Source of the DNA: Nitrososphaerota archaeon
Lineage (GTDB): Archaea; Thermoproteota; Nitrososphaeria; Nitrososphaerales; Nitrosopumilaceae
NCBI GenBank assembly: GCA_028867755.1
Contig: JAGWFT010000002.1
Coordinates: 186,001-250,000, forward strand
Length of the DNA: 64,000 nt
Reading direction: 5' to 3'
Below are positions 1 to 11,264 of this stretch, in pieces. Position numbers and translations under genes: made by a program. The notes under the pieces were generated by a model. It was not told where the DNA came from. It saw nothing but the letters and a program-made list of their open reading frames with translations, and did not search any database. Position 1 is the first letter of the stretch, and the number at the start of each line of letters is the position of its first letter.

Positions 1-135
1 AATTTAACATTAACTTTGGCATCAAACATTGCTAAAAGATCAAAAAAGGCAGCAAAGCTATTAGAAATATTACAAAATGGCTCAAAACAGCATGTTACCA
101 GTACACAACTCAGGCAAGGGCATGCTAAAGTCTAA
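1..135 (+). CDS. C-terminal end of unidentified protein (partial)
   Basis: Frame 1 is open from the window edge and stops with TAA at 133-135, giving 44 residues of a protein whose start lies outside the window. The piece is Lys/Gln-rich with an amphipathic stretch around AAKLLEILQNG. I do not recognise the family. It ends 41 bp before the peptide:N-glycanase-like gene on the same strand, so the two could be co-transcribed. An open frame of 44 codons could also be chance, hence the modest confidence. Confidence 0.45.
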   Translation, partial: NLTLTLASNIAKRSKKAAKLLEILQNGSKQHVTSTQLRQGHAKV

Positions 136-176
136 GTTACAAAAGCATTATCTTTCTGTTTTGATAATAAAAAACA

Positions 177-926
177 ATGCAGTCAAACTGCTCTAGTCTT
201 GATTTTGGTGCTATCAAGAACTCTTTTCTGTTTTACAAGACCGTAACAAGCCAGTACAAAAACCCTCAAGTATTAAGGTCTGTCAGGGAATTGATACCTA
301 AAGATGTACTGGAGGCAGACTTGGTTCCATCACTTTTGAAGTGGTTCAAGGGTTTTATGACCTGGACTCCAAACCAAATTGTCTGCGACAAATGTAACAC
401 AGGAGACAAGATGCAAGTTACGATACAAACAGGAAATACTTGGATGATACGCAAAACAGAGGTTCATACTTGCAGTAAGTGTGGAACAGAGAAGATAATT
501 CCAAGATACAATGACGTGTTGAAAATTGCCAAGACAAGATATGGAAGATGCGGTGAATGGTCCATACTTTTTGGCGCCATCCTAAATTCATTATCTATTG
601 AATCTAGAATTGCATATGATTACCTTGATCACTGCTGGAATGAGATACTTGTTGATGGCAAGTGGTTTCATGCAGATTCTACGTTTGAATATCCATATTC
701 GTTTGATAATCCTCACTATTACGAACGAAACTGGAAGAAACAGTACGTCTATGTCATTGCATTCTCGCCAGACAAGATAGAAGACGTTACAGGCAGATAC
801 ACAGAACAATGGGACACAGTTTTGTTACGAAGAAAGAGCTTGGGCCAGTCTGGAAGTGTCAATGTAAGCTCCATTGACGACCTTCAGAATTTTTACACTA
901 CTATACAATCACTTTATAGCAATTAG
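177..926 (+). CDS. Peptide:N-glycanase (PNGase/NGLY1)-like transglutaminase-fold protein
   Basis: 249 aa, ATG start. The core matches the eukaryotic cytoplasmic peptide:N-glycanase family, which removes N-glycans from misfolded glycoproteins. A zinc site is visible as CDKC (C70, C73) and CSKC (C99, C102). It is followed by IPRYN and the RCGEW nucleophile motif (C125), then DYLDHCWNE (H152) and HADS (D167), completing a Cys-His-Asp triad in the family's order and spacing. A later YVIAFSPDKIEDVTGRY segment also matches the eukaryotic enzymes. There is no signal peptide or membrane span, so it should be cytosolic. The first 60 residues are not recognisable; the PUB and PAW domains of animal NGLY1 are absent. 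Its stop overlaps the stop of the convergent MFS gene by 4 nt. The substrate is inference: it could be a deglycosylase, amidase or protease. Confidence 0.8.
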   Translation: MQSNCSSLDFGAIKNSFLFYKTVTSQYKNPQVLRSVRELIPKDVLEADLVPSLLKWFKGFMTWTPNQIVCDKCNTGDKMQVTIQTGNTWMIRKTEVHTCSKCGTEKIIPRYNDVLKIAKTRYGRCGEWSILFGAILNSLSIESRIAYDYLDHCWNEILVDGKWFHADSTFEYPYSFDNPHYYERNWKKQYVYVIAFSPDKIEDVTGRYTEQWDTVLLRRKSLGQSGSVNVSSIDDLQNFYTTIQSLYSN

Positions 927-1960
927 GACTTTTGTGATGTATCAACTGATCTTTGTTTTCCAGGCTTTAGGAAAAATGCACAAGTTATGATTGCTCCGGA
1001 ACACAACTCAATTGCAGTGAAACTATAAAACGGCAACGCATAACTTATTGTGAAAAGTATTGCCCCTATGATTGTTCCAGCAGACGCTGACACATTTCTT
1101 AATACGTCATATACAGCAAATAGTGCTGGTCTTTTCTCTCTTGGTGTCAGCTCAATTTGAAGAGCCTCATGTGTTGGGCCATAATTTACGCCTGTTGCAA
1201 TCATTGCAAGCAATATTGCAAGTATCCACCAAAATGAATGCTCTAGTATAAGAAATATCGAGAGCGGGGCTGTCGTGATGACAGACAGCAATAGTATCTT
1301 TCTCTTGTCAAACCTGTCTGAAACAATTCCAAGTGGTGTTCTAACTAGATTTGCAAACAAGATCTGCATGCTCAGTATTATTCCCCACTGGAAGCTGTCA
1401 AGCTTTGCAATGGTGATGCCATAAAATATCAGGTAAGGGCCCATTATCGAATTTGCTACAATAACTAGTATGTAAGCTGAAAGCAATGGAATCAGTGCTT
1501 TTGGTAGCGTAACAAGATTGGACCAGAAATTCTTTGAATGGTAAAATACCGATTCAAAAGACTCTGGATTTTTTCTATTGTGTAACAGTGATTGTTCTGG
1601 TTTCACATGTAACGGTTTTAGCTCGTTTTCACGCAAGAACTTGACTAGCAATATGGTAGAAATTGGTGATATCATAAGTGCTATTATTGCTCCAAGCCTG
1701 AATCCGTCTACTGCTCCCATTGTGTAAACTAGGTATCCGCCCACAAGGGGTGCAAAGATGGAGGGTATGGTGGTAAGTGTTTGGTAAAGTGAGAGCTGAG
1801 CAGTCCTATTTTTTTGTACTGTGGCATCAGCTACTAGTTGTCGCCAAGCAGTAGAACTGATTCCCCCTATTGCTCCAATCAATATTGGAATTGAAAGCAC
1901 GGCCCAGCTGTTTGATAGGTAATAACCAAAAAGTATGGCAGGTCCTATCCATGATGTCAT
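923..1960 (-). CDS. MFS transporter, 5' end without a usable start codon
   Basis: 345 aa from the first ATG, with about ten hydrophobic helices typical of the major facilitator superfamily; RTPLGIVSDRFDKRK is the mid-protein copy of the MFS loop motif. The reading frame stays open upstream to a stop at 2204-2206. That extension encodes two more helices and the first MFS loop (GGVITGRHNLKK), so ATG 1960 would remove TM1, TM2 and motif A. In the extension I find no in-frame ATG, GTG or TTG. Either the gene starts at a non-standard codon, or its start was lost by a small frameshift near 2190 or a promoter-proximal rearrangement. The 17-nt tRNA-Met copy sits just upstream (2275-2291). Substrate unknown. 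Treat as possibly non-functional. Confidence 0.75.
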   Translation of the reverse strand: MTSWIGPAILFGYYLSNSWAVLSIPILIGAIGGISSTAWRQLVADATVQKNRTAQLSLYQTLTTIPSIFAPLVGGYLVYTMGAVDGFRLGAIIALMISPISTILLVKFLRENELKPLHVKPEQSLLHNRKNPESFESVFYHSKNFWSNLVTLPKALIPLLSAYILVIVANSIMGPYLIFYGITIAKLDSFQWGIILSMQILFANLVRTPLGIVSDRFDKRKILLLSVITTAPLSIFLILEHSFWWILAILLAMIATGVNYGPTHEALQIELTPREKRPALFAVYDVLRNVSASAGTIIGAILFTISYALPFYSFTAIELCSGAIITCAFFLKPGKQRSVDTSQKS

Positions 1961-2274
1961 GATTGCAATCTTTTTGAGATTGTGCCTTCCAGTAATGACT
2001 CCGCCTGCAATAGTTGATGGTATTCCAATGAGTGTTGCAAATGTAGCAATTATTCCATACTGGAGGACTGTTCCACCAAGTGAGGTAAAGTAGATTGGTA
2101 GAAATGATAGTGCAATGTTGCCTATGCTTCCAATTGAAGTGGCAATAACCAGTACTGCAATGTTTCCCCTTGGAATGATCTCTTTCGTATTATTACATCT
2201 GCACTAAATTCTTCTTTAATCTGTTGGGTTGTAATTTTTTGTAAATGAAATTGTTATGTGTCAAAAAAAGGTGT

Positions 2275-2291
2275 ATACCGGGGGTGGGTTT
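2275..2291 (-). repeat. 17-nt copy of the tRNA-Met 3' end (candidate attachment site)
   Basis: These 17 bases are identical to 5828-5844, which are the last bases of the T arm and the acceptor 3' strand of the tRNA-Met gene, in the same orientation. The rest of a tRNA is absent here. An intact tRNA on one side and a fragment of its 3' end on the other is the usual footprint of site-specific integration into a tRNA gene. No integrase gene is visible between them. Confidence 0.7.
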
Positions 2292-2414
2292 AGCTAAATT
2301 AATTTAATACCCTAACAAATTACTGCCTTAATTTCTTATTTTTAGACGTGCGTTACCTATCTTAAACTACCTCTAGATTTAATGGACATCCTGCTATTAA
2401 ATCAAAATATGAAA
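2292..2414. other. Short intergenic stretch at the island edge
   Basis: This AT-rich stretch lies between the tRNA-Met fragment and the end of the Met-rich protein gene. I see no gene or strong secondary structure in it. Confidence 0.4.
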
Positions 2415-2759
2415 TTACCTTTGCCACATCATGCCATGATAGGTGAAGTTGTTACTCATCATCCATGGACCCATGTACTGATTCTGAAAGTTAGGATTAC
2501 TCATCATACTATACATGAAATCTTTGTTTTGAAACATGTAGTTATACATCTGCTGTCTTAGTTGAGGATCTTGCATCATATATCCCATGTACTGACCTGC
2601 AAACTGTGGATTTCTACCCATCATTTGATTGAAAATTGAAGGGTTTTGGTACATCATTGTATATGGGTTGTAGGTGTTCAGGAAAACTGCGTAACCAATT
2701 CCAATGCCCGCAACAAATACTCCAACTGTAATGCCGATCCAAACGTATCGATTGATCAT
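2415..2759 (-). CDS. Methionine-rich membrane-anchored protein
   Basis: 114 aa, ATG start. An N-terminal membrane helix (WIGITVGVFVAGIGIGYAVF, residues 7-26) is followed by a domain facing outward, extremely rich in Met, Tyr, Asn and Gln: 17 methionines in the last 85 residues, many as MM pairs (TMMY, NQMMG, YMM, SMM, WMM, GMMW). Clusters of Met with few Cys or His are typical of extracytoplasmic Cu(I)-binding proteins in bacteria; no family is claimed here. It lies in the same island as a cupredoxin, supporting a metal role by inference. A TATA-like stretch lies about 25-30 nt upstream and a perfect palindrome at 2849-2866. Confidence 0.7.
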   Translation of the reverse strand: MINRYVWIGITVGVFVAGIGIGYAVFLNTYNPYTMMYQNPSIFNQMMGRNPQFAGQYMGYMMQDPQLRQQMYNYMFQNKDFMYSMMSNPNFQNQYMGPWMMSNNFTYHGMMWQR

Positions 2760-2848
2760 GAATATAATATGATGATTTTAGATATTATACCAATGACAAA
2801 ATTATCATTACTGAGAATCATCATTTTACTCAGTTATTCCTAAGCAAA

Positions 2849-2866
2849 ATTATCAGATCTGATAAT
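2849..2866. promoter_or_regulatory. Perfect 18-bp palindrome upstream of the Met-rich gene
   Basis: ATTATCAGATCTGATAAT is a perfect inverted repeat without spacer, 90 bp upstream of the Met-rich protein start and 42 bp upstream of a decayed zinc-finger frame on the other strand. Its size and symmetry suit a dimeric regulator such as the winged-helix protein encoded at 4482. The regulator assignment is a guess. Confidence 0.45.
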
Positions 2867-2907
2867 CGGATTTTCTCGTTAAATAGGATCAACGGCTTAT
2901 TCTATCC

Positions 2908-2997
2908 ATGTTCGAAAAACATTGCCAAGTTTGCGGTATTGGTGTAAAGAAAGAGACAACACTAAAGTGATTTAACAAATATTTTTGCACTAGGTGA
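2908..2997 (+). pseudogene. Remnant of a TRASH-like metal-binding mini-protein
   Basis: ATG at 2908 opens a frame MFEKHCQVCGIGVKKETTLK that meets TGA at 2968-2970. The same frame continues as FNKYFCTR to a second TGA. CxxCG followed by F(x)KYFC is the pattern of short archaeal TRASH domains, which bind metal and often sit beside copper genes. The first TGA stands where an Arg codon CGA would fit (LK-R-FNKYFC). The C-terminal histidine or cysteine part is missing. I read it as a decayed copy of a 50-60 aa protein. Confidence 0.5.
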
Positions 2998-3283
2998 TGC
3001 CTGATGGTGCTTGTTCCACATAAAACAAGACATCTGAAGTTGAGAGGAGATTTGAGTTTGGGATGCCAAATGGTGTAGCAATCTCAAGACAATTGTTTGT
3101 CACCGTACATGTAGGAAGGCTAGCTTGAGAACTGTATGCTGCTAGATCATTTTCCAAAGTAGGATCATTTCATGTAACAATAATTGCAATCATGGAACTT
3201 CCACTTGTTGCAAATACCGTAGGAATGGTCAAAGATGAAGATAAAATCGATAGAACTATTACACTAACGAAAATATTTTTCGT
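2990..3283 (-). pseudogene. Remnant of a secreted protease N-terminus (S8/S53-like)
   Basis: On the minus strand a signal-peptide-like stretch (IFVSVIVLSILSSSL..PTVFAT) is followed by SMIAIIVT, a TGA at 3170-3172, then NDPTLENDLAAYSSQ and LPTCTVTNNC. The pattern of an IAIV segment, DPTxxxDLAAF/Y and LPxC resembles the start of the catalytic domain of secreted subtilisin/sedolisin-type proteases common in thaumarchaea. No start codon precedes it and the frame ends at 2990, before any catalytic region. It is a decayed fragment; family assignment is tentative. Confidence 0.4.
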
Positions 3284-3370
3284 TCAACCTATATTATCGC
3301 ATCACTTCTTTCCTATTAGGTTCTTCTTATCTGTGATTTGCATGCATTATGAATAATCATATAAATTATT

Positions 3371-3856
3371 TCAATATGGAGGAGGTTGCACTATAAGCTG
3401 GCCCCTCATGGTAGGATAGTGAAATGTACAATAGTAAGTAAATACACCAGTAGTATTTGCATCCAATGTCATGGTTGTATTCTCACCTGGATGTACAACA
3501 ACATTGATGTTGTACGGCTTGTCAAAGATAGTAAATGAATGATTATCTCCGCCAGGTTGTTCAATGTTAAAAAAGTGGATCACCATTTTATCGCCTTTGA
3601 AGACTGCCATAACGGGCATACTGTAAATATCCTTGGGCATTCCCATTTGGGTCTCATTGAAACCAGGGATCTCACTATCAGACAGCCAAAATTCTCTCTT
3701 TTCTCCAGTGTAATGTTGAATGTTGCTTGTTTGCAGTGTGTTCTGGTTTGTTGCCTGTGATGTGGTGGTGATGGACATTGTTACAGCGATTAAGGCAATA
3801 GTAATTGCAGCAATAGCTATGCCAAGTGTTATTATTGTAGTACTGGAGGACAACAA
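3371..3856 (-). CDS. Membrane-anchored plastocyanin-like blue copper protein
   Basis: 161 aa from a TTG. A hydrophobic N-terminal segment (about residues 8-30) anchors or exports it; the rest is a cupredoxin domain. Type-1 copper ligands are visible in the usual order: H106 (DNHSFTI), C143 (YYCTF), H146 (CTFHYP) and M150 (YPTMRG). Ammonia-oxidising archaea use many such proteins as electron carriers instead of c-type cytochromes, so periplasmic electron transfer is the likely role; the partner is unknown. It is transcribed divergently from the small membrane gene at 3952. The shared upstream region has inverted octamers flanking it. Neighbours include a Met-rich protein and a His-rich membrane protein. 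Confidence 0.85.
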   Translation of the reverse strand: MLSSSTTIITLGIAIAAITIALIAVTMSITTTSQATNQNTLQTSNIQHYTGEKREFWLSDSEIPGFNETQMGMPKDIYSMPVMAVFKGDKMVIHFFNIEQPGGDNHSFTIFDKPYNINVVVHPGENTTMTLDANTTGVFTYYCTFHYPTMRGQLIVQPPPY

Positions 3857-3865
3857 AAATTCTAG

Positions 3866-3920
3866 TTACCTACCTATTTTTAATGATAATCACCATTCTC
3901 ACCAATAGAAATGGTAGGTA
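3866..3920. promoter_or_regulatory. Divergent promoter region bounded by inverted octamers
   Basis: TACCTACC at 3866-3873 and its exact reverse complement GGTAGGTA at 3913-3920 lie 39 bp apart between the divergent cupredoxin gene and the gene at 3952. An AT-rich core lies between them. Such symmetric half-sites in a shared promoter suggest one regulator acting on both genes. This is seen in sequence only; no binding protein is identified. Confidence 0.45.
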
Positions 3921-3951
3921 GCATATTATGCATTATAAAGAACTGATTGTC

Positions 3952-4167
3952 ATGAATAAAAAAATCCTTTTAGGCATTGCGGTTGGAGTTGTCATTATCG
4001 CTGCAACGCTAGGAGTAAAATCAATCATGGGAGAGAAAATAGCACTACCTGGCGAAGAACACACCGAAAATGCATTAAACTTACAAGAAAACAATCAATC
4101 ACAGATCAAATCACTAACTACAAGTAACGAGTCAAGTTCTTCCGAGTCAACAGAATCTGGTCCATGA
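3952..4167 (+). CDS. Small membrane-anchored protein, unknown function
   Basis: 71 aa starting MNKKILLG, with one N-terminal helix (about residues 4-24) and an outward tail ending in a Ser/Glu-rich stretch (NESSSSESTESGP). An ATG 24 nt upstream (3928) would add eight polar residues; I prefer 3952 because it gives a standard signal-anchor start. No family recognised. It is divergent from the cupredoxin gene and 40 bp before the gene at 4208, possibly in one unit with it. Confidence 0.5.
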   Translation: MNKKILLGIAVGVVIIAATLGVKSIMGEKIALPGEEHTENALNLQENNQSQIKSLTTSNESSSSESTESGP

Positions 4168-4207
4168 GAAAGTATCTATTGATCCAAATACGATAGGTTG
4201 AGTAGAC

Positions 4208-4477
4208 ATGGCAGAATTATCAATTACCAATTATGTACTTCTTGCGGCACATCTCATAGTTGGATTTTTACTTGTCTTCTTTGCTGCCAAAGCGTTCAAG
4301 AGAACAAAATATCTTCCTATGGCACTTCTAGTCATAGGATTCACACTTTTGGTTCTTGGAGAAACTGTCATGGAATATGCATTTTCATTTGCTGGCGAGA
4401 GCTTGCAAAAAATAATAGAAGAAGGGTTTGAGATAGCTGGATTTATCGTACTTATCATAGCAGTCAAGAAAAGCTGA
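4208..4477 (+). CDS. Three-helix membrane protein paired with a winged-helix regulator
   Basis: 89 aa, ATG start, three hydrophobic helices (about residues 8-27, 36-55 and 70-86) with a short charged loop KAFKRTK between the first two. Its length and helix pattern recall small archaeal membrane proteins that are encoded directly before ArsR-type winged-helix proteins. The next gene starts 4 bp after its stop and is such a regulator, so the two are almost certainly co-expressed. Function unknown; a membrane partner or sensor for the regulator is inference. Confidence 0.6.
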   Translation: MAELSITNYVLLAAHLIVGFLLVFFAAKAFKRTKYLPMALLVIGFTLLVLGETVMEYAFSFAGESLQKIIEEGFEIAGFIVLIIAVKKS

Positions 4478-4481
4478 AAAA

Positions 4482-4823
4482 ATGACAAACGATGATGAGA
4501 TCCTAGGCATATTGGGAGATGAATATAGTAGAAAGATACTTGCAATACTGGCAAAAAATGAGCTCAATGCCCAAGAAATATCAGCAAAACTTGGTATTCC
4601 CGCTTCGACAACCTATAGAAAGATCAAGAGCTTGGAAAGTCTAGGCCTCATAAAGAAGACTAAGGTTGTTCGTACGCTTGAGGGTCTTGACGAAAGTTAC
4701 TACAAGAGTTTGGTCTCAGGTATAGATGTAAAGTTCAGAGATGGCGAGATGTCGTGCAAACTTGAAAAGTTTGCCATGGATGAAAAGATACAAAGGCTTT
4801 GGGAAAAATTCTCAGAAAAATGA
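4482..4823 (+). CDS. ArsR-like winged-helix transcriptional regulator
   Basis: 113 aa, ATG start. Residues 1-60 form a winged helix: DEYSRKILAILAKNELNAQE, then the recognition helix region PASTTYRKIKSLESLGLIKK. The C-terminal half (residues 61-113) is charged and has one Cys (C89); no obvious metal-binding cluster is visible. It is translationally close-coupled to the preceding membrane protein. Candidate targets are the palindrome at 2849-2866 and the inverted octamers at 3866-3920, but nothing in the sequence proves this. Confidence 0.75.
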   Translation: MTNDDEILGILGDEYSRKILAILAKNELNAQEISAKLGIPASTTYRKIKSLESLGLIKKTKVVRTLEGLDESYYKSLVSGIDVKFRDGEMSCKLEKFAMDEKIQRLWEKFSEK

Positions 4824-4933
4824 ATTGATTTTATTGTAATGCTGTGTTATAGATTTAATAAAATATCTGCTATCATTCTCGTTGATGAAAATGGTAGAAC
4901 CGATTTTATTCCAATCTGCATATTAATTATTCG

Positions 4934-5170
4934 ATGAAAACATCTTCATATGTACTAATGACGCTTGTCATACTTGCCACAAGTGCACCGACACTAGCTC
5001 TTGCACAATATGAAAACGAAGGAGGAGATCAGGGAAACACTGTGATGATCCTGGCAATCTTTAGTTTGACATTATACGTAACCATATCCGCAATACTTGG
5101 CGTAGTTGGATATTCAATTTGGAAAGTATGCAGGATAAGAAGAAAAGCTGCAAAAATGAGAGCGACGTAA
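4934..5170 (+). CDS. Small secreted/membrane protein with signal peptide and one helix
   Basis: 78 aa, ATG start. A signal peptide ending in PTLALAQ (cleavage near residue 24) is followed by an acidic linker, a membrane helix (about residues 37-60) and a basic cytosolic tail VCRIRRKAAKMR. Topology would be outside-in with the tail in the cytoplasm. No family recognised. The next gene starts 5 bp after the stop, so the two are likely subunits of one membrane unit. Confidence 0.55.
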   Translation: MKTSSYVLMTLVILATSAPTLALAQYENEGGDQGNTVMILAIFSLTLYVTISAILGVVGYSIWKVCRIRRKAAKMRAT

Positions 5171-5175
5171 TCTTT

Positions 5176-5712
5176 ATGCATAATTTTTCTATCCATTCAT
5201 ACTTGAAAATATCAATAATGATAGTTCTTGCATTTGTTCCCACTCTAGCCTATGCTGATGATGACAATGGATTTAGTACGGCTGCCACTCTTGGCTGGTT
5301 AGCAATTGGCTGTGGAATGGCAGCAAATCTCTCACTTATCATATTCAAAATGATAAAGAAGATGCCTATCATGAAATTAGTAGGCGGTTCTAGTACTTCA
5401 CAAAGTTTGACATCCATGTACCAACCTGTATTGAATTTCCACATCCTGTTAAATTCAGTGGGATTCTTTGCTGGTTTATCGCATGGATTTATGCTCATAC
5501 GAGGACTGGACTACATATCACTCTCATTGGTCATAGTCATGACCGTATCAATGATTAGTGGCATAATACTCAAATTCGCATCTGATAAAAATTTAAAATT
5601 CTTCAGCAGACTAGTTCATGGTCAAGCCATTCTTGCTGCATTACTAGTGACACTTGTTGTTTTACATGTAATTACTAGATGGCATCATGGAATTATCATG
5701 CATTTCATATGA
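5176..5712 (+). CDS. Four-helix histidine-rich membrane protein, possible heme b protein
   Basis: 178 aa from ATG 5176; a longer frame from 5119 would overlap the previous gene by 52 nt and lose the signal peptide position, so I reject it. A signal-like segment ending PTLAYAD is followed by about four helices. Two histidine pairs lie within helices: HILLNSVGFFAGLSH (14 apart) and HGQAILAALLVTLVVLH (16 apart), with HH near the C-terminus. Spaced histidine pairs on two helices are how ferric-reductase-like and cytochrome b proteins hold heme, so heme b binding is plausible by inference. Sequence family not recognised. Confidence 0.6.
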   Translation: MHNFSIHSYLKISIMIVLAFVPTLAYADDDNGFSTAATLGWLAIGCGMAANLSLIIFKMIKKMPIMKLVGGSSTSQSLTSMYQPVLNFHILLNSVGFFAGLSHGFMLIRGLDYISLSLVIVMTVSMISGIILKFASDKNLKFFSRLVHGQAILAALLVTLVVLHVITRWHHGIIMHFI

Positions 5713-5827
5713 GGTATATGACATATTCTTACAGGTCTGAATCCCAATCTTAACTATGATAATGACACGTAAAAACATCAGTTTGAAACCTTTGATGAGT
5801 GTTACAATATTAGTTTAATACCAAAAC
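5713..5827. other. Intergenic stretch between heme-like gene and tRNA-Met
   Basis: AT-rich, no reading frame of interest. RTGATGA-like words around 5754-5805 resemble box C motifs but no convincing C/D box set was found. Confidence 0.35.
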
Positions 5828-5828
5828 A

Positions 5829-5923
5829 TACCGGGGGTGGGTTTCGAACCCACGACCTCCAGATTATGAGTATTACCCTTTTTGTGGAGACTGGCACTCT
5901 AGGCCAGGCTGAGCTACCCCGGC
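5829..5923 (-). tRNA. tRNA-Met (CAT), elongator type, with a non-canonical intron
   Basis: Read on the minus strand from 5923, the acceptor GCCGGGG pairs with CCCCGGT. The D stem GCTC/GAGT, variable loop AGGTC and T arm GTGGG-TTCGAAA-CCCAC are all clear. The anticodon loop is CTCATAA (anticodon CAT). The anticodon stem closes only if about 19 nt (around 5868-5886) are removed between CCAG and ACTCATAATCTGG. That places the intron at position 30/31, upstream of the anticodon rather than at the usual 37/38. The mature tRNA is 76 nt. CCA is not encoded. Sequence around the loop fits elongator rather than initiator tRNA. Its 3' 16-17 nt recur at 2275-2291. Confidence 0.88.
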
Positions 5924-6140
5924 ATAGATTACGCCTAATTTCAACTGCAATTAAATGTAGCTTGTAGAAAATGTTCGGAAAAATTTCGAAAACTAATTTC
6001 TTTTGATCCAAAAATATGTGCAGTCTAAAATTAATTAGACTGCTTTTGTACAAATGTGGAGTGGCAGTTGATGAATATTCAGTGTAAGACAAAGTATGAC
6101 ATGAAATGCCTAATTTGTAAAAAACTTGAAAAAGACCTTT

Positions 6141-7718
6141 TTAGGCTTGAGCAATATCTCTCCAATTGGTCTCGACTTTTGTGACCCATTGGAATTTCTT
6201 TTGCAATGCACTTGTGTAGAGTTTTTCCCACTCTAGTCCAACCGCATCAGACCACGCCTTGACTACTCTTGGGTCAATATAGTTGCGTAAAGACGTGCCC
6301 AGGTTGTAATCTCGTGTTTTTTCGGTAAGCTCTATGGTTAGTTTCAATTTTTCTTCTCGTTGTTTTTGTTTTTCTGCCTGCTTTTCTGTCTTGGTAGGAG
6401 TTTCCTCGAGTTTTTTTAGTGCATCTCTTTTCTTTTGTAGTGCATCTTCGAAGCTCTTGGGAATTGTTCTTTTGTGGTTGCAGGTTATTGCCGCCTCTAG
6501 GTTTGCAAGTTTTGCATGGTAAATTTTGATGTTTTCTGACTTGGAATCTATCTTGCCTACCTTTTTTAGATAACTTTTCACCACATTTGTTGCCAAGTAT
6601 GTCCTGAAGACCTTGGCAGTAAGATCTTTTACCACACCACTCAAAAACTCATTTACATGTCTTGATGTAATGTCATCAAATATGAGATCGTCTGATTTTT
6701 TCTTTTCAGTGAATTTTTTCAAATTTTCATAAAATACCTTGTCCTGCTCTGTTACAGGAAGTGGCCTTTGCCATCTCACACTGTCTTTTCCAAGAAAGTC
6801 AAATTCTATTATGTTTGGTTTTAGCTTGATGTGTTCCACGCGGAGCGTTGTTGCACCTACAGTGTCTGCCTCATCAGGATCCTTTTCGTCTCCTACTCTC
6901 ATTGCAGTCTTGTAAATTAGATAACTTACTGTGGCCACCTGTCTCACCTTTTCGTCCTTGTCTGACATTTTTTTGACTATGGCATCAAGCACTTTACTTA
7001 TGTGCTCTGAGAGCTTGGTTGCCTTTTCATATTTCATCTTGTCACGACCTTGCTTTAGGTCAGAGGTGTCAGAAAGCCAAACATACTTTCTTTTCTCTGT
7101 AAGCCTATCTTCCCAGCTTGCAAGCCACATAAAGTCAGACTCGTGAATTATCTGCCACCACTTTCCTGGAGGAACCTTGGCATCTTCTCCAAGGTTTAGT
7201 GTAACGTCTTTTTCGGTGACTCGAGGCTTCCATCTGCCCCTTAGTGGATGGTCGCCACGTCCTATGAATAAGCCTGGCGGTTCTGCCATCCAGTTGGCAA
7301 CCTCTACTTCTTTTCCATCCATCATTGCCTTTCCGTATACTCCCTTCATCTTTTCTTTGATCTCTTTTCTTGTAGTGGCAATCTTCTTTTTCTCTTCTTT
7401 TGTTACCGTAAGCTTGGCATCATTTTCTTTATCAACAACCTTGAAAGAGTCTGAAAAATCAATATCGGAAAATGCAGTCTTCTTGTACTTGTCTGGCAGC
7501 ATCGTGACAAAATCAGAAAGAAAGTTTTTCTGAAAAACAGAATCTTTCACATAAGGCGTGTCTTTTTTCTTTGCCCACTGGTAGGCCATCTCTTCTGCAT
7601 CCAAGCTTAGGGGGACCTTCTCACCCTTGATCCTAATCGTTATCCCCTTTGACTCAAACGGGGGAGGGAATGCAATGCCGTTATGTTGTAATGTCTTCCA
7701 CTTCATTTTTAATATCAC
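6141..7718 (-). CDS. topIB: DNA topoisomerase IB (eukaryotic type)
   Basis: 525 aa; a second in-frame ATG at 7706 (MKWKTLQHNG) is an equally good start. It relaxes supercoiled DNA through a 3'-phosphotyrosyl intermediate. The N-terminal half matches the eukaryotic DNA-binding domain (GIAFPPPF, WMAEPPGLFIGRGDHPLRGRW). The catalytic core has KYVWLSDTSDLK, the Arg of YKTAMRVGDEKD, and the C-terminal LGTSLRNYIDPRV carrying the catalytic Tyr (Y480). A charged coiled-coil linker (about residues 415-470) joins them. Possession of topoisomerase IB is an established thaumarchaeal hallmark among archaea. It is a single-gene unit; the downstream 218 bp contain the tRNA-Met. Confidence 0.95.
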   Translation of the reverse strand: MILKMKWKTLQHNGIAFPPPFESKGITIRIKGEKVPLSLDAEEMAYQWAKKKDTPYVKDSVFQKNFLSDFVTMLPDKYKKTAFSDIDFSDSFKVVDKENDAKLTVTKEEKKKIATTRKEIKEKMKGVYGKAMMDGKEVEVANWMAEPPGLFIGRGDHPLRGRWKPRVTEKDVTLNLGEDAKVPPGKWWQIIHESDFMWLASWEDRLTEKRKYVWLSDTSDLKQGRDKMKYEKATKLSEHISKVLDAIVKKMSDKDEKVRQVATVSYLIYKTAMRVGDEKDPDEADTVGATTLRVEHIKLKPNIIEFDFLGKDSVRWQRPLPVTEQDKVFYENLKKFTEKKKSDDLIFDDITSRHVNEFLSGVVKDLTAKVFRTYLATNVVKSYLKKVGKIDSKSENIKIYHAKLANLEAAITCNHKRTIPKSFEDALQKKRDALKKLEETPTKTEKQAEKQKQREEKLKLTIELTEKTRDYNLGTSLRNYIDPRVVKAWSDAVGLEWEKLYTSALQKKFQWVTKVETNWRDIAQA

Positions 7719-7863
7719 CGTATTTTTTACCTAAATCTGTTGACTTTGACAAAAATTGACTCTCTGACTTATATCAATCTATTCAAAAATAATGTAAAAA
7801 ATTCATACATTTTTTCAATGATTGTACCAACAATGATGAAAATACTTTATCCACAGAAAAAAT

Positions 7864-8697
7864 CTAGCTAAAAAGTTCCTTTTTTATATAATTTTCAAAC
7901 TCAATGTCTGTCTTACTCTTCTTTGCCTCAAGGAACATTATTGCGTCATTGCCAACTGGGTACCTAGGTAATGGGTTCTCAGAGCTTATTGCATTGATTA
8001 TGGCTCTTGCCACATCTTGGGCAGGAGTTCCCATCTCAGACATCATGACAAGGCCTTGCATTACTTTTTCTGTAATATCTTTGTAAATGGAATCTGGCTT
8101 GGTTACTTTTTTTAACGATGCAAAAAGGTTAGTCTTGACAACGCCGGGCTCTATTATTACGGTCTTGATGTTAAATGGTGCAAGCTCGTATCTCATGGAC
8201 TCACTAAGACCCTCGAGTGCAAACTTTGAACTGATATAGGCAGGAGTTACAGGAAATCCAATCCTTCCAGCAACTGAGCTGACATTTACTATGATTCCAG
8301 ATTTTTGCATGCGCATTGTTGGCAATACTTCTTGGATTGTCCTTGCTACTCCAAAGAAATTTGTCTCAAACTGGGCTCTCATATCTTTTATTGATAAATC
8401 CTCAAGGCAGCCAACCAGGAAATATCCAGCATTGTTTACAAGTACATCTATCCTTTTTTTGTCCTGAACTATCTTGCCTACTGCATTCTTGATGGTATCT
8501 TCCTTATCCACATCAAGTTCTAAGACTTCGATCTTTAAGTTTTCTTTTTTTGCAATCTCTAAAATCTTGCCGTTCTTTTTTGTGTCGCGCATCGTGGCAT
8601 ATGTATAACATCCATTTCTTGCCAGTGCAAGTGCAGTCTCAAAACCTATGCCGCTTGAGCTCCCAGTTACAATTGCAACTTTATCCATAATTATCAT
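7864..8697 (-). CDS. Short-chain dehydrogenase/reductase
   Basis: 277 aa; the fourth residue is a second Met (8688) and a likely start (MDKVAIVTG). Classical SDR features: nucleotide-binding TGSSSGIG (residues 11-18), NNAG (88-91), catalytic Ser in NVSS (140/141) and YxxxK (Y154, K158). It oxidises or reduces an unknown alcohol/carbonyl with NAD(P)(H). The Arg in TMRD after the second strand suggests NADP preference, by analogy. It stands alone between topoisomerase IB and the helicase gene. Confidence 0.88.
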   Translation of the reverse strand: MIIMDKVAIVTGSSSGIGFETALALARNGCYTYATMRDTKKNGKILEIAKKENLKIEVLELDVDKEDTIKNAVGKIVQDKKRIDVLVNNAGYFLVGCLEDLSIKDMRAQFETNFFGVARTIQEVLPTMRMQKSGIIVNVSSVAGRIGFPVTPAYISSKFALEGLSESMRYELAPFNIKTVIIEPGVVKTNLFASLKKVTKPDSIYKDITEKVMQGLVMMSEMGTPAQDVARAIINAISSENPLPRYPVGNDAIMFLEAKKSKTDIEFENYIKKELFS

Positions 8698-8753
8698 TCT
8701 AAAACCATGTTAATAATTTCTGCCATTTTATGATATCATCACAATAACATCGA

Positions 8754-11264
8754 CTAGACTAGAGGCCTGTCTCCCTCTGAAGGCTCTGAGATCTCTGTTA
8801 CTTCACCGTCCTTGATTCTCTGGAGTATCTCAGCAGATGCGCCCTTGTGAAGATATTCATTGTTGTTGCCACATCTGTACGAGAAGGTACACCGAGGGCA
8901 TCCTGACTCATTTTTGCACGGACACTCTTTTACTATATGCAGGCTGCGGTCAAACGCTTTTTCAAGCCTGTCATACAAGACCTTGCTTGCACCATTGCCG
9001 CCAATTGCAGAGTCGTATACAAAAATTAATCCTGATGTGCCAAGCGAGATTCCGCCAAGGTCTTGTGATACGCCGCCTGTTATCATGTTGCTGCCCTCTA
9101 TGACAACATGCTCAGTTGCATGGTATCCGCTTGCCTCTGTATGCTCTGCATTCTCAGCTTTGCCTATCTCAACTTGCGGTCTTGGTGCCTTGAAGACCAG
9201 ACCCTTTGTGACAAAATCATACTCTAGTGGATTTTCAAGGGTTACCTTTTGTCCCTGCGTTATCTCTTGGCCTAGCTCGATGTTGACATAGCCATATACG
9301 CGCTTTTGTATGTGTAGCTTGCAAAACGCCACCTCAATTCCGTTTGCCTGCCTTTTCTCAAAGATTGTATCAATTGTCGGCCACTCTTCTGTCAATGCCT
9401 TTGTATAGTATGGATAATTTTTTGGAAGAACTTCTAGTTTTGCAGACATGTTTCTAGGATAGCCAAGCTCCTTTACTCGATACCTTGTTCCGGCAAGAAA
9501 ATAAACAGCTGATGGATGCAGCTCTTCTAGTGCAATAGGCAGAACCCTGTCCCCTACTTTGATTCCGTTCAAGAAAATGTCAATTGACTTGCCAATTCCT
9601 CTAATGCTATAGTCTTCTAGGAGATTTTTAATTTGATCAAAGTTTGGAACATACCTATTTTCAACCAGAACGAGATTTCCAACATCAAGGTGTCTTTGAA
9701 TCACGCTCTTGTGCTCTTGCAGCTCATGTTTTGCAATTGGCTTGTCGCATGCCATTGCAAGTACCTGAAACTCTTCAACAAAGGGATTTTTTGGGTCTAT
9801 GTAGATTTGTTCTGTGTCCTCAAAGTAATCCCCTGGGTGATTCTTGTAGTATTGCGATATTGGATCGTTTCCAAGAACCAAGAAAGCAAAACCGTCCTGC
9901 CCTTTTCTTGCGGCCCTGCCAATTCTTTGAACCAGTCGATTCACCGGAATGGTAGAAGATATCACACCATCCACATCTCCAACATCGATTCCAAGCTCAA
10001 GTGTAGGGGTTGCAGATACGGCAAGCAGCTTGTCATTTTTGAACATATTCTCAACTGACCGTCTATAGTTTGCCATCAGCCCTGCCCTGTGAACTTTGAT
10101 GTCTATCTTTTGGCGTCTTGCCTGAAGCGCCAAGAGCTCCGAGTTTAGGTGAGAGTTGTTAAAGACAAGTGTCTTGTGTCTCTTTGACGAGAGTCTCTTT
10201 AGTATGTCGATCATCAAGCCACGTTGGGTGACAAGAGAAGGAAACAGCATGCAAAACTCTATTCTCCCTTTCTTTCCAGAGCCTGTAACCTGTCCCATCT
10301 TGACTCCAAACAAGTCTTGGCAGAATGAGAGCGCATTTTCAAGTGTGGCAGAAGATGCCACAAACTGAACCTTGGGACAGACTCGTTTTAGTCTCTTGAT
10401 GATATAGTGTACATTAGAGCCAAAGATTCCTGAATATACATGGGCCTCATCAACTGCCAAGAACTTGACAGTATTTAGCAATGCAGCAAATCTTGTCCTG
10501 TGCCATAGGTGATAATGCAGCACATCAAAGTTTGTTATTATAATTTCAGGAGGACTGTCAAGAATCTTTCTTCGCTCTACATCTTTAGTATCTCCATCAA
10601 AAACAGCAATTCCGATATTTAGCTTGTCTGCAATGTCCTTTATCTTTGGGTACTGGTCACGTGATAACGACTTGGTCGGATAAACAAAGAGCGCCTGTGT
10701 GATGCGTTGTGGTGTCTTTGAATCCACTATTTTTTGCATTATTGGTATCACAAAGGCCTCTGTCTTGCCAGATGCAGTTGGGGCAGTTATGACAATGTTT
10801 TTTCCAAATATGATGTCATGGATTGCATCTTCCTGAAATTTGTAAAACTTGGAAATGCCTTTTGATTTTAACACCTCAATAATCCTTTCATCTAGTCCCG
10901 AGTCATCAACTGTAGAGCCCATCTCTGGGTCTGGCTCTTCAATTGACTTGAAATGTGACACGTAATGTTTTTTTGAAAATAATATTGATTTTGTCAGCTC
11001 GTCTATCTTGGTTTTTCCAATCATCTTTTTTATCTCCGATTCGCTTTGCAGAAGACCTTCTTTTTCTAGTGCACTCTGGGATTCTTTCTTGGTTGGAATC
11101 TGCCCCGAGTCAAACCTTACAAGAAAGTCAAGATATGCCTCATCTACGTTTCTTGTATCGTCTATTACGTCCTCAATCTTGCACTGTGCACAGCTGAACA
11201 GAATTTTTTGGTTAAATGTCTTTTGTACCTCTATCTTTGATTTACACTTGGGACACGAATGCAC
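8754..11264 (-). CDS. DEAH-box superfamily 2 helicase, Hrq1/MrfA-like
   Basis: 836 aa with GTG start. Domains in order: N-terminal zinc ribbon (C4, C7, C25, C28); RecA-like helicase core with APTASGKT (161-168), DEAH (272-275) and SSAT (304-307); second core domain with LGIDVGDVDGVI and QRIGRAARKGQ; and a C-terminal domain with a four-cysteine cluster CPCKNESGCPRC..YRCG. That layout, with a C-terminal cysteine cluster, is that of Hrq1 (RecQ4-like) and bacterial MrfA helicases, which act in DNA crosslink and mitomycin repair. The extra N-terminal zinc ribbon is not part of the core family. A TATA-like AAATTAAATC about 25 nt upstream suggests a leaderless transcript. It is divergent from the epimerase gene. 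Confidence 0.85.
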   Translation of the reverse strand: MHSCPKCKSKIEVQKTFNQKILFSCAQCKIEDVIDDTRNVDEAYLDFLVRFDSGQIPTKKESQSALEKEGLLQSESEIKKMIGKTKIDELTKSILFSKKHYVSHFKSIEEPDPEMGSTVDDSGLDERIIEVLKSKGISKFYKFQEDAIHDIIFGKNIVITAPTASGKTEAFVIPIMQKIVDSKTPQRITQALFVYPTKSLSRDQYPKIKDIADKLNIGIAVFDGDTKDVERRKILDSPPEIIITNFDVLHYHLWHRTRFAALLNTVKFLAVDEAHVYSGIFGSNVHYIIKRLKRVCPKVQFVASSATLENALSFCQDLFGVKMGQVTGSGKKGRIEFCMLFPSLVTQRGLMIDILKRLSSKRHKTLVFNNSHLNSELLALQARRQKIDIKVHRAGLMANYRRSVENMFKNDKLLAVSATPTLELGIDVGDVDGVISSTIPVNRLVQRIGRAARKGQDGFAFLVLGNDPISQYYKNHPGDYFEDTEQIYIDPKNPFVEEFQVLAMACDKPIAKHELQEHKSVIQRHLDVGNLVLVENRYVPNFDQIKNLLEDYSIRGIGKSIDIFLNGIKVGDRVLPIALEELHPSAVYFLAGTRYRVKELGYPRNMSAKLEVLPKNYPYYTKALTEEWPTIDTIFEKRQANGIEVAFCKLHIQKRVYGYVNIELGQEITQGQKVTLENPLEYDFVTKGLVFKAPRPQVEIGKAENAEHTEASGYHATEHVVIEGSNMITGGVSQDLGGISLGTSGLIFVYDSAIGGNGASKVLYDRLEKAFDRSLHIVKECPCKNESGCPRCTFSYRCGNNNEYLHKGASAEILQRIKDGEVTEISEPSEGDRPLV

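Follow-up and report, generated by a model that had tools for sequence, protein, structure and literature searches.

The window analysed in this study is a stretch of 64,000 nt on a 272-kb contig of a soil ammonia-oxidising archaeon of the genus Nitrosotalea (G000, genome of 1.64 Mb). Its neighbours within the genus are Candidatus Nitrosotalea, ammonia-oxidising archaea of acid soil. Between an MFS transporter gene and a tRNA-Met gene lies a small island, bordered by a repeated 17-bp core and by two modules, termed A and P'. The following features were assigned:

923..2199, minus: left flank, MFS transporter, adjoining tRNA-Met in the empty site of G018
2275..2291, minus: distal 17-bp core, then the original downstream sequence of the tRNA, ACACCTTTTTTT (repeat search; G018 alignment)
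2292..2322, minus: A arm, CAAAATGNGTGGGTATTRAACWAATTTRACC-type, directly before the distal core (nhmmer 46.6 bits versus 8.5 for the best reversed-DNA match; sole copy in the genome)
2415..2759, minus: Met/Gln-rich membrane-anchored small protein, 114 aa (several species have homologues)
~2990..3310, minus: decayed frame (homologue in G019:C254)
3371..3856, minus: cupredoxin-domain protein, 161 aa (PF13473, E=7.5e-8; PF00127, E=8.2e-5)
3928..4167, plus: small membrane-anchored protein, 79 aa (ORF; related proteins occur in other cargo clusters)
4208..4477, plus: DUF7521 membrane protein, 89 aa (PF24365, E=7.9e-8)
4482..4823, plus: winged-HTH regulator, TrmB/ArsR-like, 113 aa (Pfam)
4934..5170, plus: small secreted or membrane protein, 78 aa (ORF; many species have it conserved next to the same neighbour)
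5179..5712, plus: membrane protein weakly like DUF4405, a cytochrome b-type membrane family (PF14358, E=0.008, below cut-off; longest ORF 5119-5712)
5783..5822, minus: P' module, forming the start end of the unit and lying 5 bp inward of the tRNA-side junction (nhmmer 36.3 bits; sole copy in this genome)
5828..5844, minus: 17-bp core AAACCCACCCCCGGTAT within the tRNA, the tRNA-side attachment site (repeat search; G018 empty site)
5828..5924, minus: tRNA, elongator Met-type, CAT, intron-containing, its 3' end being the attachment target, attB (Rfam; G035 orthologue)
6141..7718, minus: right flank, conserved gene adjoining tRNA-Met in nearly all relatives

The 17-mer ATACCGGGGGTGGGTTT is present at 2275-2291 and 5828-5844, with both copies on one strand, and corresponds, within the tRNA, to the acceptor and the 3' half of the T arm. 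Only these two matches were found in the window with up to 2 mismatches allowed (mean in shuffles 0.01). Both are exact, and the whole 1.64-Mb genome contains no third exact copy; a genome-wide search with up to 3 mismatches gave one further match, which carries 3. The tRNA (5829-5923, minus strand) scores 47.2 bits with the Rfam tRNA model. Because it contains an intron, ARAGORN did not resolve its anticodon, and the orthologue in G035 was assigned as tRNA-Met(CAT). From its sequence, we take the right-flank gene to be DNA topoisomerase IB. In the MFS flank gene, the frame runs on upstream of the first called ATG without an obvious start codon (window 1961-2200). A weak match to the Rfam family Bacilli-1 inside the island (3461-3539) is far under the gathering score and was disregarded.

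In G018, the site is empty: the MFS flank and the tRNA flank are adjacent and share just the 17 bp. Window positions 89-2291 align with 6670-8878 of the G018 locus (L037) and positions 5828-6047 with 8862-9083, so that the overlap is 17 bp exactly. Therefore, a site-specific event placed 3,553 bp into the 3' end of tRNA-Met, and this comparison fixes the exact ends of the insertion. The sequence past the distal core resembles the sequence that follows the tRNA in many relatives (ACACYTTTTT...), and the tRNA of the island genome is followed by GTTTTGG.... A tRNA end restored by the element, with the old end displaced by 3,553 bp, is the outcome expected from site-specific integration. In every sampled relative with the tRNA context, the cargo genes are absent from this place. 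Fragments of tRNA 3' ends are commonplace near tRNA genes, and the two 17-mers might be coincidental or reflect a duplicated tRNA fragment without link to an insertion; however, the overlap of exactly 17 bp at the empty site leaves this explanation practically no weight.

An earlier note on this DNA had claimed a tRNA-Met gene, an identical 17-mer in the same orientation that matches T arm plus acceptor, and an arrangement as of attL and attR after integration into the tRNA. All three are borne out, and the synteny comparison that it had suggested led to the empty site in G018. The two observations that it had named as contrary to its reading, the same genes at this place in relatives without the tRNA fragment and many further copies of the fragment, were not made in the sampled relatives and in this genome, respectively. 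Two marks of a tRNA-integrated genomic island are thus present, the displaced direct repeat of the tRNA 3' end and the empty site in a relative. The third, an integrase gene inside, is lacking, since no PF00589 gene was found at the locus; the same note had already remarked on this, and the only two PF00589 genes of the genome are located on C24.

Of the cargo that it had described, the cupredoxin and the regulator were recovered by Pfam, a decayed frame lies at about 2990-3310, and the Met-rich protein matches no Pfam family. In G035, a homologue of the Met/Gln-rich protein lies 34 bp from a degenerate A module. The homologue of the decayed frame in G019 (65% aa identity over 113 residues) is interrupted by stops as well. 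A copper/redox role of the cargo is likely, judging from the cupredoxin and the Met-rich composition. The same genome harbors a second copy of the DUF7521 and HTH gene pair (G000:C24:130583-131201, 77% nt identity), which has no end modules (L002, L070). Clusters similar to the cargo sit at other places in many congeners, and the homologues often lack modules (most of L057-L066); the cargo is therefore not tied to the type of unit bounded by P' and A. At 4-fold sites, identity of the cargo is 47-71% versus 43-48% for the topoisomerase gene in the same genome pairs (G014, G004, G002 and G009; small counts per single gene), and the close relative G021 displays no cargo excess. Cargo similarity is hence decoupled from species distance. 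Between species, the cargo genes (cupredoxin, DUF7521, HTH and others) resemble one another more closely than core genes do, so they were acquired horizontally.

Each island end carries a conserved module of ~40 bp: P' is at 5783-5822 and A with the core at 2275-2322, both pointing the same way. In 1.4 Mb of DNA, much of it chosen around such copies, the A profile detected 42 copies above 17 bits, with a best score of 8.5 in reversed DNA. P' copies were counted by a pattern scan of 25 genomes, with one in G000. A-type sites were found in 14 of 26 sampled genomes of the genus and in 2 of 135 other family members. The exact 17-mer is present in two or three copies in 13 of 37 genus genomes; its non-tRNA copies have att-like contexts and are mostly located behind the conserved arm, which precedes the core in most of them. 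Integrase-bearing elements at tRNA-Met possess a related arm (27 bits on the A profile). When whole genomes were scanned by pattern (22 and 25 genomes), at least eight pairs of P' and A at most 6 kb apart had the same direction, versus one pair with opposite directions, and about 0.3 pairs would be expected within 6 kb if both were independent (a rough estimate from the pattern scans). Profile counts gave 23 pairs in the same and 3 in opposite orientation, those 3 all on one contig, in a set of loci that was picked around modules and counts arrays repeatedly.

The sequence GTGGGT...ACCCAY, with GGTAT after a further 4-5 nt, is common to A, P' and the T arm of the tRNA, and the junctions lie just outside this stem. 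This common architecture would suit recombination of single-strand hairpins, similar to integron attC sites or IS200/IS605, with the DNA hairpin of the tRNA T arm mimicking the GTGGGT...ACCCAC site of a unit. However, compensatory changes in the stem are not in excess (5 versus 5.9 expected in 41 A sites, 2 versus 1.9 in 39 P' sites), and none of six integrases tested reaches an integron-integrase cut-off, which makes a hairpin mechanism very improbable. Membership in the integrons was rejected on the same two grounds: there is no attC-type structure, as indicated by the lack of compensatory changes, and no integron integrase at cut-off. The two PF00589 proteins of this genome have no match to the integron-integrase models TIGR02249 and NF011946 and score 56-69 on the XerA/integron model NF040815 (cut-off 220); related integrases reach at most 51 on TIGR02249 (cut-off 265).

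Genome-wide scans revealed units with P' and A in several Nitrosotalea genomes, which span about 1-6 kb and tightly enclose whole genes. The island shares their organization, with P' and A plus core in one orientation and 1-6 kb apart (window 5822 to 2275). Cargo of other units includes a cation-type P-type ATPase (G011:C47), a heavy-metal-type P-type ATPase with YHS domain (G018:C47), FmdE-TauE-USP-CBS (G035 and G011), MNT/HEPN (G026) and a ChrB-like protein with others (G019). Gene direction inside the units varies relative to P'-to-A, being with, against or mixed, and a role of A and P' as promoter or terminator was rejected on this basis. The FmdE-TauE-USP-CBS units of G011 (C77) and G035 are 90% identical, with homology only from inside P' to the core end, in differing contexts. 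The G035 unit is part of an insertion of ~3.57 kb that is absent from G003, G006 and G014 and runs some tens of bases past the modules. Between G019:C272 and G031:C13, the outer sequences are 96% identical up to P' and A, and the enclosed cargo is unrelated. At G032:C24, one P'-type site precedes a flank that in G011:C47 follows the A of the ATPase unit, whose other end is P'; the upstream flank gave no match between these two loci. G035 and G032 have the purD side and P' in common, but not the cargo. Read as sequence comparisons, these cases demonstrate that the cargo of other units was swapped or inserted at the module ends.

In G035, an array of two paralogous gene pairs, each a small plus a secreted gene, adjoins a tyrosine integrase (L126 3964-10397; G035:1022963-1029396). 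Each pair closes with an A module, ~2.06 kb apart. The array was set aside as proof of tandem cassettes, as tandem duplication explains it too. Likewise, the Kdp pair of G011 (at tRNA-Met) and G027 (between two A modules) was not used as evidence for unit ends, given that homology stops short of the module.

A further dispersed intergenic repeat, GGGGAACTAAACTAAGTGAACAAAACCCCTCAAGGGCC, resembles A and P' and often lies beside them (L181 2347-2405 and 4597-4636; L185 4517-4610). A and P' are part of a wider set of intergenic repeats, some of them degenerate, and their role could be something other than recombination. With many such related repeats in intergenic regions, and with a two-unit paralogous array that tandem duplication can account for, A and P' might be dispersed repeats of a REP/MITE-like or regulatory kind, the cargo being moved by homologous recombination and the tRNA-Met insertion being a chance event via the 17-bp identity. 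However, exact junctions at the core end, the fixed P'-to-A polarity and the repeated use of one tRNA end fit better with site-specific recombination, and 17 bp is short for homologous recombination. We therefore regard this alternative as unlikely.

In four species of the genus, the tRNA-Met end is occupied by integrase elements, and in other species by islands without an integrase. In G019 and G031, identical PF00589 integrases are encoded 44 bp downstream of tRNA-Met; at the same site, G021 has a fragment 99% identical to this integrase, G029 a different PF00589 integrase and G004 a persisting integrase fragment. Integrase-less islands with copies of the core on both sides comprise one of 5.7 kb in G011 with KdpABC and an Lrp-type regulator, bracketed by a 28-bp repeat, and one of 2.4 kb in G006 with a 19-bp repeat and MNT/HEPN-like genes, assigned by similarity to the Pfam-confirmed pair of G026. 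Probably, G014 has another such island at tRNA-Met, of 9.9 kb, with a core that is short of one base. MNT/HEPN toxin-antitoxin-like pairs adjoin the attachment core in three genomes (L045 3888-4876; L130 near core 6216; L131 6978-7967) and perhaps act as stabilisers. Apart from the identical integrase at tRNA-Met, G019 and G031 share a 96% identical tRNA-Glu region, with core genes differing far more (L040, L056; L173, L271). This points to whole elements having been transferred recently, their slots between P' and A filled with different cargo. In G019, two attachment copies with one direction (C261:27150 and 79460) lie between the contig start and the usual tRNA-Met neighbours, which suggests that islands accreted serially at this spot.

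Occupation of the same tRNA-Met site by integrase-bearing elements in relatives, the integrase fragment kept in G004 and the decayed frame in the island would also be in line with a decayed remnant, i.e., a CIME by decay: internal deletion would have stripped a full, integrase-bearing element in tRNA-Met of its integrase and core genes and left the cargo between intact att ends, so that no cassette system is needed. However, a Pfam search of the island ORFs found no relic of replication, integrase or conjugation genes, and intact operons are closely enclosed by further units of 1-6 kb that lack an integrase and have the same pair of ends. Moreover, one and the same unit lies in unlike surroundings in two genomes and stops exactly at the modules, a pattern that random deletions, happening independently, would not produce. 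Decay is a rather unlikely explanation. The two-ended structure, conserved in many genomes, favours a recurrent integrase-less mobile unit over one-off decay.

We thus consider it probable that the island is an integrase-less, CIME-like or cassette-like cargo unit, one of a family with the order P', genes, A plus core, that is mobilised in trans by a tyrosine recombinase. In this model, the island would have arrived as a circle with an attachment site composed of A arm, 17-bp core and P' module. A tyrosine recombinase from elsewhere, either a resident XerA-like integrase or one of a passing integrase element, would have recombined the core of the circle with that of the tRNA; the incoming core would have rebuilt the tRNA 3' end and pushed the original end 3.5 kb away. 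After removal of the island, the restored junction would read tRNA-core-ACACCTTTTT. For units of the family, tRNA-Met and other resident sites would be the places where genes for metals, ions and stress are exchanged. The circle, the trans-acting enzyme and a present-day mobility of the island are inferred. Candidates for action in trans in this genome are the integrases G000:C24:993220 and 603195, both XerA-like and 38% identical to the integrase beside the G035 array. A single genus-wide recombinase tied to every unit was rejected, as none co-occurs with all units; G011 and G036, which have units or A sites, gave no PF00589 match in drafts that are 85% and 78% complete. A viral carrier was likewise rejected, since the exact core was not found in IMG/VR contigs.

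By its ends, the island belongs to a previously unremarked set of small, probably mobile gene packets in Nitrosotalea, which would move metal, ion and stress genes with no insertion enzyme of their own. It is tempting to speculate, though we hold it with less than even confidence, that they form a cassette system, in which compact units with a start module and an end site are captured or swapped at resident sites by a trans-acting recombinase; the resident sites might then, equally tentatively, be P'-type sites that stand alone, slots inside integrative elements and the end of tRNA-Met. If true, this would be a system functionally like integrons, with other sites and another enzyme, which trades acid, metal and ion genes (Kdp, Mg/Ca and Cu P-type ATPases). 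Kdp was reported in just two of four Nitrosotalea genomes (PMC5767755). For the patchy metal, potassium and stress genes of acid-soil ammonia oxidisers, the vehicle is so far not known. Defined attachment modules would constitute such a vehicle and predict the moving genes, their landing places and the junction DNA. If one recombinase serves all units, this would be an archaeal integron-like gene capture, which integrase-keyed surveys can miss.

Several known systems resemble the island. CIMEs are cis-mobilizable elements, integrase-less islands that keep attL and attR (PMC5704250), and the island has this anatomy, with both att sites kept and integration and transfer genes absent. As in CIMEs, two att sites flank the cargo at the 3' end of a tRNA gene, and relatives carry integrase elements at this site; unlike CIMEs, the units described here have conserved two-module ends at many non-tRNA places and enclose intact small operons. 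Integrated mobile elements of thaumarchaea (Krupovic 2019) also have short att sites (median length 17 bp), use tRNA genes (39 of 68; PMC6563490), including the 3' ends of intron-containing ones, and carry metabolic cargo such as multicopper oxidases. However, that catalogue sought elements via integrases, signature genes or ORFan-rich loci, whereas the island has no such signature gene and is just 3.5 kb long. In Islander-type tRNA-targeted islands (PMC4383910), a regenerated tRNA and a displaced 3' fragment mark the endpoints, as they do here, but the present island has no internal integrase gene. Integron cassettes and archaeal CALINs (PMC9668308) are compact units as well. A short recombination site closes each of them, some stand in tandem, and an integrase is not nearby. 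The Nitrosotalea units differ from them in the lack of covarying attC folding, in free gene direction and in a second, distinct start module. In summary, it is the genus-wide, two-ended unit structure that sets the island apart from CIMEs and from the thaumarchaeal norm.
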